Under the pieces are notes generated by a model. It had not been told where the DNA came from and did no database searches. It saw only the letters and a list, made by a program, of their open reading frames with translations. Positions 1-58,027 of a stretch of DNA of 58,027 bases are shown here, piece after piece. Made by a program: the position numbers and the translations under genes. Source of the stretch: an uncultured Clostridia bacterium (lineage in GTDB: Bacteria > Bacillota > Clostridia > Oscillospirales > Ruminococcaceae); assembly GCA_947589035.1 (NCBI GenBank), contig CANPYZ010000013.1, positions 1-58,027 on the forward strand. Reading direction: 5' to 3'. Numbering within the stretch: the first letter of the stretch is position 1; every line of letters starts with the position of its first letter.

Positions 1-130
1 ACCAATTCAAGCCGTCAAAAGTAATTCTTGGATTGGAGTATTTCGCATCAACAGGGATTCTGCCAGGCTCTGCCAACCTGACAAGATTAAACCTCTGTTT
101 GTTCTTCTTTCGGCTTGTTGTCAGCTTTTC
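1..130. repeat. Direct repeat of the window's last 130 bp
   Basis: Aligns without gaps to 57898-58027 in the same orientation, with differences only at positions 7 (t versus g) and 93 (c versus t). Both lie inside tnpB, so this is a repeated element at each edge of the window. Confidence 0.95.
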
Positions 131-511
131 TAATTTTACATGGGTAGAAGTAAAGCTGATTTTAGAAGTATCCGCATAAAAAGACGGCTTTGACTTTCTT
201 CTGCTCTTGAATTTTGGGAATCCTGCAATACCGTTAAAAAATCTCTGATAGGCTGTTACTGCATCTCTGATTGCCTGTTTCGGAATATTATTGCTGTAAT
301 CGTTCAGCCACGCATATTCTGGTTGTGTTTTCAACTTCGTAAATAATTTTCTTAATTCATCACTGGAAATAAATTTATTTCCTGCTGCATAATTTTTCTG
401 TTCATAGTCCAATGCCCAGTTATACGCAAATTTTGTCAATCCCGCACATGCAAACAATTTTGTTTTCTGCTTGTTGTTCGGTAGAAGCATGACTTTGATT
501 GTCTTAATCAT
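1..511 (-). CDS. tnpB: IS605-family TnpB, N-terminal part, cut by window edge
   Basis: This is the first 170 codons of a TnpB/OrfB protein; the frame stays open to base 1, so the catalytic half lies outside the window. The start at 511 follows an AAAGGAG ribosome site. The N-terminus (MIKTIKVMLLPNNKQKTKLF) and the GFPKFKSRR stretch are typical of the TnpB wedge/REC region. TnpB proteins are RNA-guided nucleases encoded by IS200/IS605 elements. No tnpA transposase is visible beside it. Bases 1-130 match 57898-58027 with two mismatches. Joining this half to the right-edge half would give an in-frame protein of 387 residues, the normal family size. Whether this copy is intact cannot be told from the window. 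Confidence 0.88.
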   Translation of the reverse strand, partial: MIKTIKVMLLPNNKQKTKLFACAGLTKFAYNWALDYEQKNYAAGNKFISSDELRKLFTKLKTQPEYAWLNDYSNNIPKQAIRDAVTAYQRFFNGIAGFPKFKSRRKSKPSFYADTSKISFTSTHVKLEKLTTSRKKNKQRFNLVRLAEPGRIPVDAKYSNPRITFDGLNW

Positions 512-642
512 TTTTAGTAAGCTCCTTTATCATTTTTGACTTTTTCCTTTAAAATTATAAGAGTCAATACTTTATGACAACATTTTATAAAAATATTTTA
601 ACTGTTAAACGCCTCCTTAATATCACTTGAATAGATAATTTT

Positions 643-47904: not shown

Positions 47905-47981
47905 AAATTATGCAAGTACATTTGTTTTTTGTACACGGACGATTTGATATTCGGGGAGTGATAAAATAAGTAGTAAAAATA

Positions 47982-48009
47982 TTGACAAAAGTGTTTGAAC
48001 GTATAATAT
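47982..48009 (+). promoter_or_regulatory. Possible promoter of tnpB
   Basis: TTGACA (47982-47987) and TATAATAT (48002-48009); the spacing of 14-16 bp is short. The left flank of the tnpB at 1-511 has a similar TATTGAC-TATAAT arrangement. Confidence 0.4.
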
Positions 48010-48069
48010 ACTCATACAGGATTTATGGGTTAAGAAAATACAAAACTAAGATTAAGGGAGATGAAGAAA

Positions 48070-49245
48070 TTGCTAAGAAGTTATAAAACCGAAATTTTCC
48101 CTACACCTGAACAAAAGCAAATCATTCACAGAACAATCGGCATGTGCAGATTCGTCTACAATTTTTACATTGCACATAATCAAGAAATTGATGAAAAAGA
48201 AGAAAGATTCGTTTCAGGATATGAATTTTCAAAATGGCTGAATCATGAATATCTTCCACAAAATCCAGAATTTTCATGGATTCAGGAAGTCAGCAGTAAA
48301 TCCGTCAAGCAAAGCATCATGAACGCTGAAAGGGCATTCAGAAACTTTTTTGAACACAGAGCAGGTTTTCCCAACTGGAAGAAAAAGTCAAATTCTGATG
48401 TGAAAATGTATTTTGTCAGAAATGGAAAAACACGTCTTATTTCCTGCGAACGGCACAGAATCAAAATTTCTACTCTGGGTTGGGTAAGAATAAAAGAAAA
48501 AGGCTATATTCCAACAAATGCAGAAACACATATCATTAAAAATGGTACAGTTTCTATGAAAGCCGGAAGATATTATGTTTCTGTTCTGGTAGAAGAACCA
48601 GCACCACAAAAGCCCGTTCTGAATCATTTCGGAATTGGCATTGACTTAGGTGTAAAAGAATTTGCAGTCTGTTCAGACGGCAAAATTTTTACAAATATTA
48701 ACAAATCTGTCCGAATCAGAAAACTGGAAAAAAGTCTGAAACGGCAACAAAGAAAACTTTCGAGGAAATACGAAAGTTTGAAAAAATCACCAAATAACTT
48801 GAAAGGAGAAGCTACTCGACAGAATATCCAGAAACAAATGCTGAAAGTACAAAAAATTCATCATCAATTGGATTGTATTAGAACAGATTACCTCAATAAA
48901 GTAATTTCTGAACTGGTGAAAACCAAACCAGCCTGGATTACGCTTGAAAATCTGAACGTCAGTGGTATGATGAAGAACAGACATCTTTCAAAAGCGATTG
49001 CACAGCAGAAATTTTTTGAGTTCAGAACAAAATTAACTGCAAAGTGTAAAGTATACGGCATTGAATTAAGATTAGCAGACAGATTTTATCCGTCAAGTAA
49101 AACTTGTCATCAATGTGGCTGTATTAAGCATGATTTAAAACTATCTGACAGAATTTATCACTGTTCTGAATGTGGTTACACAGCGGACAGGGATTTCAAT
49201 GCAAGCTTGAATTTAAGAGATTGTCTGACTTATCAAATTGCATAA
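48070..49245 (+). CDS. tnpB: TnpB, RNA-guided nuclease of an IS605-type element
   Basis: RuvC-type nuclease that uses a guide RNA made from the element's right end. The TTG at 48070 is preferred (GGGAG 9 bp upstream; MLRSYKTEIFPT is the normal family start) over the ATG at 48061, which abuts that site. 391 residues. Counting from 48061, the RuvC residues are D195 (GIDLGVKEF), E296 (TLENLNVSGM) and the Asp pair of ADRDFNASLN (376/378). The zinc finger is CHQCG...CSECG (349-371). All catalytic residues are kept, so the nuclease is probably active. It differs clearly from the tnpB at the window edges, though both have the SGMMKNRHLS-like and RFYPSSK/RYYPSSK segments. Confidence 0.95.
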   Translation: MLRSYKTEIFPTPEQKQIIHRTIGMCRFVYNFYIAHNQEIDEKEERFVSGYEFSKWLNHEYLPQNPEFSWIQEVSSKSVKQSIMNAERAFRNFFEHRAGFPNWKKKSNSDVKMYFVRNGKTRLISCERHRIKISTLGWVRIKEKGYIPTNAETHIIKNGTVSMKAGRYYVSVLVEEPAPQKPVLNHFGIGIDLGVKEFAVCSDGKIFTNINKSVRIRKLEKSLKRQQRKLSRKYESLKKSPNNLKGEATRQNIQKQMLKVQKIHHQLDCIRTDYLNKVISELVKTKPAWITLENLNVSGMMKNRHLSKAIAQQKFFEFRTKLTAKCKVYGIELRLADRFYPSSKTCHQCGCIKHDLKLSDRIYHCSECGYTADRDFNASLNLRDCLTYQIA

Positions 49246-49362
49246 AAAGCTATGATAAGTAATACCGTAGGCTATACGGAAATTTACGCCTGTGGACTGT
49301 ACATGAACTTGTGAGTAGATAGTGGCTTGCCACGTTCAAAAGCATACAGGTTGAAGCAGGAA
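49246..49362 (+). ncRNA. Putative omega RNA (right end of tnpB element)
   Basis: Directly after the tnpB stop. It contains a CCGTA/TACGG hairpin, the block AATTTACGCC (49281-49290), GAGTAGAT (49313-49320) and a hairpin GTGGC-TT-GCCAC (49322-49333). The same blocks in the same order follow the other tnpB (57123-57244), where the last hairpin is ATGAC-TT-GTCAT. The paired changes keep the stem, as expected for a conserved RNA. Known TnpB guide RNAs overlap the 3' end of tnpB and run into flanking DNA as the guide. Confidence 0.6.
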
Positions 49363-49413
49363 TTTTCTCCATATGGGTATATTTGTCCATATTTTGAGTA
49401 GCAGGTCTTCTGC

Positions 49414-49851
49414 GTGGAACATCAATTGATTATTGTCGATGTCTCTGTTCTGCCAACTGTCATTCATAAAGTGTTGGAAGTCAAAAAATTATTAGCCAAC
49501 AGAGAAGAAAAAAGTTCCGCTGCTGCCTGTAAACGTGTTGGCATTTCCAGAAGCGCATATTATAAATATAAAGACTGCGTTTTTTCTTATGAAGATAAAC
49601 TGACACAGAGAATTATGAATTTACATGCTGTCCTTCGTGATGAAGCCGGCGTGCTTTCCAGTGTTCTGTCTGCGCTTTATGATTTAGATGCAAATATTTT
49701 GACGGTCAATCAGAATATCCCCATTGACGGCGTGGCAGAAGTAACATTTTCTATCCGTCTTTCAAACAGTCGCTATTCTCCTGCTGACCTTCAGGAACAT
49801 CTCATGCATATTGACGGCATAGTCAAAGTGAAAATTTTATCAGGAGAATAA
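49414..49851 (+). CDS. ACT-domain regulatory protein (PheB/YszB-like)
   Basis: 145 residues. An N-terminal helical part (VLPTVIHKVLEVKKLLANREEKSSAAACKRVGISRSAYYKYKD), typical of the family and with a helix-turn-helix look, is followed by an ACT domain (LHAVLRDEAGVLSSVLSALYDLDANILTVNQNIP). Such proteins usually precede hom in Clostridia and probably sense an amino acid. Start is GTG at 49414, with only AGCAGG upstream. The tnpB element lies just before it; the original ATG and ribosome site may have been separated from the gene, which would now depend on transcription from the element. Confidence 0.88.
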   Translation: MEHQLIIVDVSVLPTVIHKVLEVKKLLANREEKSSAAACKRVGISRSAYYKYKDCVFSYEDKLTQRIMNLHAVLRDEAGVLSSVLSALYDLDANILTVNQNIPIDGVAEVTFSIRLSNSRYSPADLQEHLMHIDGIVKVKILSGE

Positions 49852-55919: not shown

Positions 55920-57122
55920 TTAGAATAACATCACCTCAATCACTAATAACAACACACTGCACACTAAAAAAGATACCATCGGCATAGCGGTGAAAAAAGC
56001 TTCTAATTTTTCCTGCAATGTTAAATAGGTTCTGTTCTGAATGGCTGTACTGGCGGAATTTTTATGAAGAAAAATATAAATTCCTGTTGCGAAACAAAAT
56101 ATACAGGTAATTCCTAAAATTACCCACCATTTTATTGACCCGTCATTATCTACAGAGTCAATATAAAATAATACAAACATGTAAATTTCATGAATAATTC
56201 GTAAGCAAACCACTGACCAGAAACTTCCGGTATGAATGAAATAATATGAAATGGCTAAATGAATTAGCCCGATTCGCACCCCGTCAAAAAAATTATGTGT
56301 TAATGCCCCCGCTAAAACTGCTGTGGAAATCATCGCAAATAAATCCCCGAATTGTCTTAACGCCTGAAACATACACCCATGCAGAAATAATTCCATGACT
56401 AACGGCGAAATAAATATTACCATTAAAAGATAAATCATCATTTTATGGTCTTCTGCGCCAATCATGCCGAAAATTGTTCTGTATTTTTCCAAATCTGCTG
56501 ACCTCGGCACGCTCAGCATTCCCATTCCGGTACTTAACAGCATAATTAAAGAAATACCCGACAGTAATTTTTGCGGCTTTCGCATTTTCAACGGCATACT
56601 CACCTGAACCGGCAATTTCATGACGGATTGCACTACTAACGCCGGAATGAAATATTTCAAAATATGTACGATAAATTCCAGCCAGAATACAAGCTGTTCA
56701 TCTCCGTAAAGTTTATTCTCCCCCAAAAATACTAACTCAATATGTAAATGCAGAAATTGCATTGCCCATACAATGACTTTATCAAAAAGATTTTCCACAA
56801 CAAGATAAATCATCATCGCACAACCAATCAATCTACCCATTCGATTCAATACATTCTGTTCCACTTGTGCAGGCGATTGCCTGACAATTGCATGACTTTC
56901 TGAAAAGGCGGTTTCTTTTGGGTTCACTGTAAAACGAAATGCATAAGGATTTTGTTTTCTTCTCCGCCATGAACGGAATGCTTCCTGATAATCACTTGTC
57001 TGATAGGGACAGGAAAAATCATCTACAACATCAACTACTTTCTGTATTGCTGTTTCTTCCGGCATCGCTATGCCGTTACTGAAAACTGATAAAAAGTGAT
57101 AAAACAAACTTTTCTGTTTCAT
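55920..57122 (-). CDS. CPBP-type intramembrane protein, diverged
   Basis: About 400 residues with an N-terminal cytoplasmic part of 95 and about eight membrane segments. The Abi/CPBP region reads PLVMELFLHG (243-249), THNF (H276) and IIHE (H311). Compared with the usual EExxxR, the first Glu is Met and the Arg is His, so protease activity is doubtful. The start is unclear: 57122 (MKQKSLFY) is the first reasonable ATG, with AAGGA touching it; the longer ORF from 57161 begins inside the tnpB right-end hairpin. The element probably replaced the native start region. Confidence 0.72.
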   Translation of the reverse strand: MKQKSLFYHFLSVFSNGIAMPEETAIQKVVDVVDDFSCPYQTSDYQEAFRSWRRRKQNPYAFRFTVNPKETAFSESHAIVRQSPAQVEQNVLNRMGRLIGCAMMIYLVVENLFDKVIVWAMQFLHLHIELVFLGENKLYGDEQLVFWLEFIVHILKYFIPALVVQSVMKLPVQVSMPLKMRKPQKLLSGISLIMLLSTGMGMLSVPRSADLEKYRTIFGMIGAEDHKMMIYLLMVIFISPLVMELFLHGCMFQALRQFGDLFAMISTAVLAGALTHNFFDGVRIGLIHLAISYYFIHTGSFWSVVCLRIIHEIYMFVLFYIDSVDNDGSIKWWVILGITCIFCFATGIYIFLHKNSASTAIQNRTYLTLQEKLEAFFTAMPMVSFLVCSVLLLVIEVMLF

Positions 57123-57244
57123 TCCTTGTTCATTGTGTCCACTTTTGATATGACAAGTCATTATCTACTCGTGTTTGATATGACACTCCAAAGGCGTAAA
57201 TTCCCGACTAACGTATCGGTACACACAAATTGCATTTGTTTTAG
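57123..57244 (-). ncRNA. Putative omega RNA of the right-edge tnpB
   Basis: On the minus strand after the tnpB stop: ACCGA/TCGG hairpin, AATTTACGCC (57193-57202), GAGTAGAT (57163-57170) and the hairpin ATGAC-TT-GTCAT (57150-57161). Same order as 49246-49362, with compensatory changes in the last hairpin. The guide would come from the flanking CPBP-like gene. Confidence 0.58.
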
Positions 57245-58027
57245 CTATGCAATGAGTTTCTTGTATCGCATTAAATTCACACTTGCCTGAAAATCTCTGT
57301 CAATCACAAGTCCACATACAGAACAATGATAAACTCTGTCAGACAATTTCAGGTCTTTCTTGATGTTTCCGCAACAGGAACATAATTTACTGGACGGATA
57401 GTATCTGTCAGCCGTGATAAATTCAATGTTATGCCATGCGCATTTATATTGAATCTGTCTGTAAAATTCATAAAAACATTGTTCCTGAACTGCTCTTGAC
57501 AAGTGTCTGTTCTTCATCATGCCTTTTACATGCAAATCTTCTAAAACAATAAACTTTGGTTCTCGGTCTATGATTTCAGAAGTCACAGAATGCAGATAGC
57601 TGTGACGAATATTCGTTAGTTTACGGGTGAGTTTCAAAAGTTTTCTTTCACTTTTTACAATATTGCGTGTTTTACAGTAACGTTCTCCTTTCTTGTTTTT
57701 TGAGTATTTCTTTGATACTCTGCGCTGCAATCTACGCTTTTTTTTCTTTAGTTTTCTGACTTTTGCGGTCTTGTTGATGTTTGGGTAACGACTCCCATCA
57801 GAACAAATTGCTAAGTCTTTGATACCAACATCAATGCCAATTCCCTGATTTGTTGGCTTTTCCTGTGATTCCTCACAGTCAATGCCAACGGAAATCCACC
57901 AATGCAAGCCGTCAAAAGTAATTCTTGGATTGGAGTATTTCGCATCAACAGGGATTCTGCCAGGCTCTGCCAACCTGACAAGATTAAACTTCTGTTTGTT
58001 CTTCTTTCGGCTTGTTGTCAGCTTTTC
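57245..58027 (-). CDS. tnpB: IS605-family TnpB, C-terminal part, cut by window edge
   Basis: The frame is open to base 58027, so the N-terminus lies outside. All catalytic motifs are here: GIDVGIKDL (RuvC I Asp), VLEDLHVKGMM (RuvC II Glu), VIDRDFQASVN (RuvC III Asp), and the zinc finger CSCCG...CSVCG. Probably an active nuclease. A methionine start at 57973 would be internal (it is a TTG Leu codon in RLAEPGR). Its first 130 bp repeat the window start. It is related to, but clearly different from, the tnpB at 48070. Confidence 0.92.
   Translation of the reverse strand, partial: EKLTTSRKKNKQKFNLVRLAEPGRIPVDAKYSNPRITFDGLHWWISVGIDCEESQEKPTNQGIGIDVGIKDLAICSDGSRYPNINKTAKVRKLKKKKRRLQRRVSKKYSKNKKGERYCKTRNIVKSERKLLKLTRKLTNIRHSYLHSVTSEIIDREPKFIVLEDLHVKGMMKNRHLSRAVQEQCFYEFYRQIQYKCAWHNIEFITADRYYPSSKLCSCCGNIKKDLKLSDRVYHCSVCGLVIDRDFQASVNLMRYKKLIA
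57898..58027. repeat. Direct repeat of window bases 1-130
   Basis: Same orientation, two mismatches in 130 bp, no gaps; the right partner of the repeat at 1-130, inside tnpB. Confidence 0.95.

Follow-up and report, generated by a model that had tools for sequence, protein, structure and literature searches.

RAGATH-18 guide RNAs of IS607-type TnpB elements in a Clostridia genome: landing in Shine-Dalgarno positions and a possible second role as host gene leaders

Background

The omega RNA of IS200/IS605 TnpB is a guide RNA of the right end which is read into flanking DNA, and in this respect it resembles the RNAs described below. The latter differ from it in their RAGATH-18 fold, in a TAM resembling the Shine-Dalgarno (SD) sequence and in a host genome free of Y1 transposase matches.

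For IS607-type TnpB, bound RNA and RNA-guided cleavage have been published for 23 relatives (PMC11061315). According to this paper, the reRNA bound to TnpB consists of a 73-nt core flanked by 37 nt on the 5' side and 64 nt on the 3' side, together with variable sequence, the complexes cut DNA adjoining an AGGAG or GAGGG TAM, and 64% of RAGATH-18 RNAs adjoin TnpB (Ren et al. 2024, PMC11061315). The structure 8IAZ contains ISFba1 TnpB with RAGATH-18-derived RNA and target DNA (PMC11061315). Our RNAs are like the ISFba1 reRNA in their Rfam family, their place 3' of tnpB, the best PDB match of the protein (8IAZ) and the SD-like left junctions. RNA-only leaders are a feature of the present set, and the words "Shine" and "ribosome" are absent from the main text of the ISFba1 paper (PMC11061315).

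Two other systems invite comparison. Group B IStrons, composed of IS607 and a group I intron (PMC4227781), are likewise IS607-type elements at GG-containing sites; they spare the host gene at the RNA level by splicing out, whereas the leaders reported here are proposed to fold out. TldRs are RNA-guided transcription factors derived from TnpB (PMC13418256). Both they and our leaders would represent domestication of a TnpB system, but in TldR it is the TnpB-derived protein that acts, whereas here the RNA is kept, even in genomes with no PF07282 match.

The guide-RNA family itself is thus known. In the openly licensed literature searched, we found no description of SD landing by IS607 elements, of RNA-only RAGATH-18 leaders or of the closing helix that delimits them.

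Results and discussion

Two tnpB elements with related right-end RNAs

The window, i.e. the whole stretch of DNA analysed (58,027 nucleotides), contains element A with both its ends, the right half of element B and the left half of a third element. Both window ends break within this element repeat. The features are as follows.

1..611, minus strand: third element, left half, with left end at about 611, tnpB N-terminus at 511-2 (PF12323) and AAGGAGG just outside (612-618); match at 548-609
47953..47958, plus strand: GGGGAG, left junction of element A, SD-like and in the TAM position, judged from the sequence, from the aligned left junctions of relatives (mostly GGAG, by eye) and from the published TAM
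47959..49404, plus strand: element A, with left end TGATAAAATAAG, promoter-like sequence (by eye), tnpB, RAGATH-18 RNA and right end TTTTGAGTAGCAG, delimited with copies L049, L050 and L043 of the same genome and with relatives
48061..49245, plus strand: IS607-type TnpB, 394 aa (Pfam matches; best PDB match 8iaz_A)
49289..49362, plus strand: RAGATH-18 core (RF03064) of the guide RNA, 64.8 bits
49318..49337, plus strand: apical helix P4, whose inner part is the hairpin 49322-49326/49329-49333 noticed initially; two-sided change at 7 of its 9 pairs among 19 sequences
49405..49424, plus strand: 20-nt guide as predicted, covering the spacer and the first part of the downstream gene; placed from the right-end boundary and from what has been published on guide position and optimal length
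49414..49851, plus strand: downstream ORF with ACT-domain similarity just under the Pfam cut-off; GTG start 9 nt past the right end at 49404
55920..57065, minus strand: Rce1-like gene downstream of element B; ATG at 57065, 7 nt past the right end
57073..58027, minus strand: element B, right half, with the 3' part of tnpB (57245-58027), RAGATH-18 RNA and right end CAGTAACGG at 57073; truncated where the window stops
57122..57194, minus strand: RAGATH-18 core of element B, 74.3 bits

An initial annotation had reported the same ordered blocks 3' of two tnpB genes, and these are present on both strands. The plus-strand copy consists of a CCG..CGG hairpin, AATTTACGCC, GAGTAGAT, GTGGC (49322-49326), TT and GCCAC (49329-49333). 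The minus-strand copy reads ATGAC TT GTCAT at the corresponding place, within 57194-57122; two of the five pairs are altered on both sides with pairing intact, just as described. Gene positions had to be amended: the first tnpB, placed at 48070, occupies 48061-49245 in the ORF list, and 57245, given for the second, is the stop of that gene, which runs off the window. The span assigned to the feature, 49246 to 49362, does hold the RNA blocks, but the right end extends beyond it, to 49404.

Both copies match Rfam family RAGATH-18 (RF03064), with 64.8 bits at 49289-49362 on the plus strand and 74.3 bits at 57194-57122 on the minus strand, above the gathering score of 44.9. In the Rfam alignment the annotated hairpin forms the apex and is enclosed by further helices. 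The first view of the locus had taken in the apical helix only and reached neither the outer helices nor the final 42 nt before the right-hand boundary nor the landing site.

TnpB of element A matches PF07282, PF01385 and PF12323. Its best solved structure is 8iaz_A (E=1.8e-164; next best 4.4e-59). The two TnpBs of the window share 46% identity over 245 aligned positions, and their elements combine unlike right ends with one RNA family. Right ends of the element A type read GAGTAGCAG or GAGTGGCAG in copies of the same genome and in relatives, and those of the second family read CAGTAACGG.

No match to Y1 transposase was found in the host genome, which is 95.9% complete. An IS200/IS605 reading, raised by TCAA after the hairpin, was dropped on this result and on the right-end comparison, which placed the terminus 42-49 nt beyond the core. 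The window ORF list contains no TnpA ORF beside tnpB of element A and no ORF of at least 90 aa between its left end and tnpB. In relatives, an ORF of 166-222 aa overlaps the tnpB start in 15 of 36 cases. All three of the ORFs beside tnpB that were tested encode a PF00239 resolvase domain and a MerR-type HTH, which is consistent with IS607 TnpA. The host genome has five PF00239 matches, none of which shares a contig with a RAGATH-18 match.

The window RNAs are therefore best read as RAGATH-18 right-end guide RNAs (reRNA) of IS607-type TnpB, and this reading is supported by the above data. The initial term "omega RNA" was right as to a right-end TnpB guide RNA; more exactly the RNA is the reRNA of IS607-type TnpB, omega RNA being the name for that of IS200/IS605. 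Such guide-RNA identity is membership in an already known family.

Covariation of the RAGATH-18 core

Nineteen sequences of the element A type, picked as 74 nt long and gap-free, were aligned; three come from the host genome (window included) and 16 from elsewhere. Over 22 pairs, 95.5% of cells are standard and nine pairs display two-sided change, while sliding the structure by 1-3 columns leaves at most 50.1% standard pairs. Within the nine-pair apical helix 89.5% of cells are paired and seven pairs are changed on both sides. The conserved RNA structure, at first deduced from covariation between two sequences, is real: four of the five inner hairpin pairs vary on both sides among the 19. When the same homologues were searched for uncompensated changes, the hairpin was found to be largely held, with 6 of 95 inner-pair cells unpaired.

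Could the hairpin and the right-end motifs be conserved as DNA instead, namely as binding sites of a transposase? Right ends are element termini, the ends of IS200/IS605 elements carry hairpins that are recognised as single-stranded DNA, and CAGTAACGG is common to tnpB-bearing and RNA-only copies. Nevertheless, we regard this explanation as very improbable. The genome lacks Y1 matches, Rfam and the published reRNA both put the fold in RNA, and the 5' strand of the closing helix (see below) is internal rather than at the left terminus in copies with a visible left end. Moreover, leader structure is kept in genomes with no PF07282 match.

Elements often land in Shine-Dalgarno sequences

IS607-type TnpB elements with RAGATH-18 RNA often land in Shine-Dalgarno sequences. 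Of 30 right flanks in the host genome, 18 open an ORF of at least 74 codons whose start codon lies 4-13 nt past the right end; by this test, the other 12 are not ribosome-binding site (RBS) positions. Genes following these right ends include those of PurA, NusB and a LeuD-like protein (Pfam). Among relatives of element A, a start codon opening 50 codons or more of reading frame lies 3-20 nt past the right end in 38 of 46 flanks, one of 47 having been left out for want of a right end. The same test is passed by 150 of 487 AGGAG sites and by 12859 of 76696 positions, a high background since internal codons count.

A stricter version was based on joined flanks, i.e. rebuilt empty sites. Three of the 28 given lacked a right end or a TAM-like motif and were set aside, and 17 of the remaining 25 are RBS positions. 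The background amounts to 47 of 322 AGGAG sites (14.6%; all AGGAG sites, not only intergenic ones) and 794 of 19462 positions (4.1%), with binomial p of 2e-9 and 2e-18, respectively. Of the other eight joined sites, three fall within a longer open frame and five have no start. Because the left junction was placed at the nearest TAM-like motif, these figures concern the right side of the site and not the TAM.

Left flanks were inspected for the second family in the host genome, where one of 30 loci is devoid of the left-end motif. A match of at least 4 nt to the SD consensus, which we take to be the complement of the 16S tail, was found in 27 of 29, compared with 30% of GG sites. Exact AGGAG or GAGGG is absent from some left junctions; element A of the window has GGGAG. 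Both window copies fit landing in an SD position. As the TAM of published relatives (AGGAG or GAGGG) is itself SD-like, the guide taken from the right flank is often a gene start.

This pattern might be a mere by-product of target preference: a serine transposase preferring GG would meet it mainly at the SDs of low-GC genomes, and insertions within genes would be purged. In line with this, IS607 of Helicobacter pylori inserts at (G)GG, the three tested ORFs beside tnpB of relatives have the MerR-type HTH and resolvase expected of IS607 TnpA, and two elements of group C (possibly introns; see the last section) apparently lie within genes. It gives no account, however, of the SD-like motif that precedes the closing helix in RNA-only families. 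We grant it close to an even chance. It agrees with the landing pattern, and the result on leader RNAs is unaffected by it.

RNA-only copies precede host genes

The host genome contains 33 RAGATH-18 matches. By eye, 19 follow the end of tnpB, four are cut by contig ends and ten have no tnpB end in the upstream sequence viewed. Several RNA-only copies are near-identical and 420 bp long; others are divergent and located before host genes. The 420-bp elements (L026, L042, L046 and others) have a promoter-like TTGACA-17-TAGGAT, recognised by eye, upstream of the RNA.

RNA-only relatives occupy the corresponding SD position ahead of glgB, rplK, rplW, hpf, spoVG, rplT, efp and other genes. NCBIfam identifies products of leader-bearing genes as GlgB (named from a partial protein, under its curated cut-off), L23, L11, HPF, SpoVG, EF-P, L20, chorismate synthase, an AbrB-like protein and FabF, and Pfam as L15-type, a LeuD-like aconitase domain, NusB and PurA.

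An alignment of 12 leaders from six genes reveals a 5' domain TTTGGCAAAT...AAGAAAGGA..GTTACTG, followed by the RAGATH-18 core and then, a short way ahead of the start codon, by CAGTAAC. Over 34 pairs, 98.0% of cells are standard and 11 pairs are changed on both sides, with slid controls reaching at most 41.2%. In shuffles of this alignment the two-sided pair count was attained by 6 of 500; the count of further pair types, one of five measures, was attained by 500 of 500.

The 12 leaders were used to build the model R1, so that their own high scores follow by construction. Within the genus, 18 of 63 R1 matches score at least 143 bits, six of them outside the model, and the next score is 116.9. 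These six include two more glgB copies, a chorismate synthase gene and an AbrB-like gene. Family-wide, 7 of 297 genomes are matched, the host genome and one genus member included, and from another genus this contributed the leaders of efp and rplT in G454; ten loci were viewed, four of them without a core by the pattern used. An order-wide Rfam search with stricter filters matched 5 of 295 genomes, again including the host genome, and most sampled members of the order gave no match.

A closing helix with an SD-like motif outside it

The motifs flanking the leader RNA, GUUACUG and CAGUAAC, can pair to form a closing helix. In two copies both strands have changed: to GUUACCG/CGGUAAC before rplT of G454 (L250) and to GUUAUUG/CAAUAAC in G002:C239. 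The evidence for the helix consists in these two-sided changes only, because the search pattern, which passed only C-A mismatches and only at two of seven pairs, largely imposed the pairing; pairing in all 28 counted sequences is thus no test. The count started from 35, of which three are without the 5' motif, three were missed by the core pattern and one is without the 3' strand. Two of the left-out RNA-only copies, G032:C89 and G030:C83, have one mismatch each in the helix (by eye). The predicted optimum fold contains the closing helix in 26 of 28 leaders, the exceptions being the rplW leader of the host genome and G028:C59, and this fold test is weak, as shuffled interiors still pair the helix at 0.36-0.94 on average.

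Directly before GTTACTG, 25 leaders have an SD-like match of 7-8 nt, AGAAAGG(A) in 22 and GAGGTGA in three; the second RNA-only family is characterised by GAGGTGA (GAGGUGA in the RNA) in place of AGAAAGG. The start codon is situated 9-14 nt after CAGTAAC in 23 of the 25. A local 5-nt SD match occurs in three of 25, e.g. in G031, where AGGAG precedes the rplO start by 3 nt. Measured across the closed helix, the SD-like motif is about 12-18 nt from the start codon, which is longer than usual.

These data can be arranged in the following model. TnpB with its RNA would cut DNA in which SD and gene start lack the element, as published work implies, so that retention of the element would be favoured. 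An RNA-only element inserting in an SD sequence would split the ribosome-binding site. The leader RNA may then fold out into a closed domain, with its two ends brought together and its own SD-like motif set beside the start codon, and the gene would still be translated. In the glgB group the folded leader would have been retained by the host.

We consider it likely that the main parts hold jointly, i.e. right-end reRNAs of IS607-type TnpB, frequent SD landing, and RNA-only leaders that fold out with their own SD and are kept by the host at glgB. The particular notion of a mobile guide RNA turned host leader, in which RNA-only copies enter SDs, fold out and rejoin an RBS split by about 130-300 nt, is put forward tentatively, as a possibility somewhat short of even.

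If true, folding out would be the translational counterpart of intron splicing, and it would become testable how a mobile element can land in a ribosome-binding site and leave the gene active. The AGGAG requirement of this nuclease family would be explained by a motif that marks gene starts, and mobile RNA would have given rise, time and again, to domesticated 5' leaders such as those of glgB, ribosomal protein genes, hpf and efp.

The glgB leader

A divergent RAGATH-18 RNA was first seen before the same gene, glgB, in seven genomes of the genus. A survey of glgB gave 34 strong matches in the genus, of which 30 were fetched. The RNA is present at 10 of these 30 loci, one being the decayed copy of the host genome. 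At the 20 others, inspection by eye showed a similar promoter, with a leader that is short and contains a G-rich, SD-like stretch. One site was found both empty and filled: in G034, AAGGGGGG is followed by TAATGCT-ATG, while in G002 AAGGGGGG is followed by the element and then by TAATACTGCT-ATG. The G002 copy resembles other copies in its genome and may therefore be a separate insertion. The SD-like motif of the glgB leader is AGAAAGGA. Up to 20 nt from the glgB start, the longest stretch able to pair with the 16S tail measures 3-5 nt at loci with the RNA and 4-9 nt at loci without it.

Nine glgB orthologues display two-sided change in 7 of 34 predicted pairs, as counted without a shuffle control. 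In the nine aligned copies the closing-helix strands are identical and the loops vary. The leader of the host genome (L211; contig C1, 115124-115267) scores 78.3 bits and is decayed, with an altered RAGATH-18 core; it retains the closing-helix strands and the SD-like motif.

Such decay could mean that the leaders of glgB and of the ribosomal genes are passive relics heading for loss. Left ends of the glgB group look eroded by eye, and the RNA occupies only 10 of 30 loci. The two-sided changes among orthologues, and closing-helix strands that stay identical while loops vary, speak against it, and we find this explanation improbable.

PF07282 matches occur in seven of the ten genomes with a glgB leader. 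None was found in G004, G012 and G015 (drafts 82, 91 and 77% complete), in which the leader is present; the RNA is therefore kept where no nuclease was found. The RNA half of a TnpB system may thus be able to outlast the protein half, as a host leader.

The same genomes bear on another explanation, by which the leaders regulate in cis through a bound protein (a k-turn-binding protein, or TnpB acting in trans) or serve as standing guides for TnpB made elsewhere. A crystal structure has confirmed a k-turn in RAGATH-18, the start codon is placed immediately beyond the closing helix, and seven of ten leader genomes do have PF07282 matches. The three without such a match speak against it, and we judge it rather unlikely, if less so than passive decay.

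Other tnpB-like genes of the genome

With no RAGATH-18 match nearby, another TnpB-like protein of 416 aa scores 48 bits to PF07282 (L017 and L018, on contigs C3 and C44 of the host genome). Group C (L009 and L010, on contigs C4 and C2) represents a third tnpB type, with a protein of 399 aa and a shortened apical loop. Its long 5' region resembles a group I intron by eye (possible IStron), and no group I intron was detected in L009 or L010 at the Rfam gathering score. Both group C elements apparently lie within genes, adjoining TGGG.
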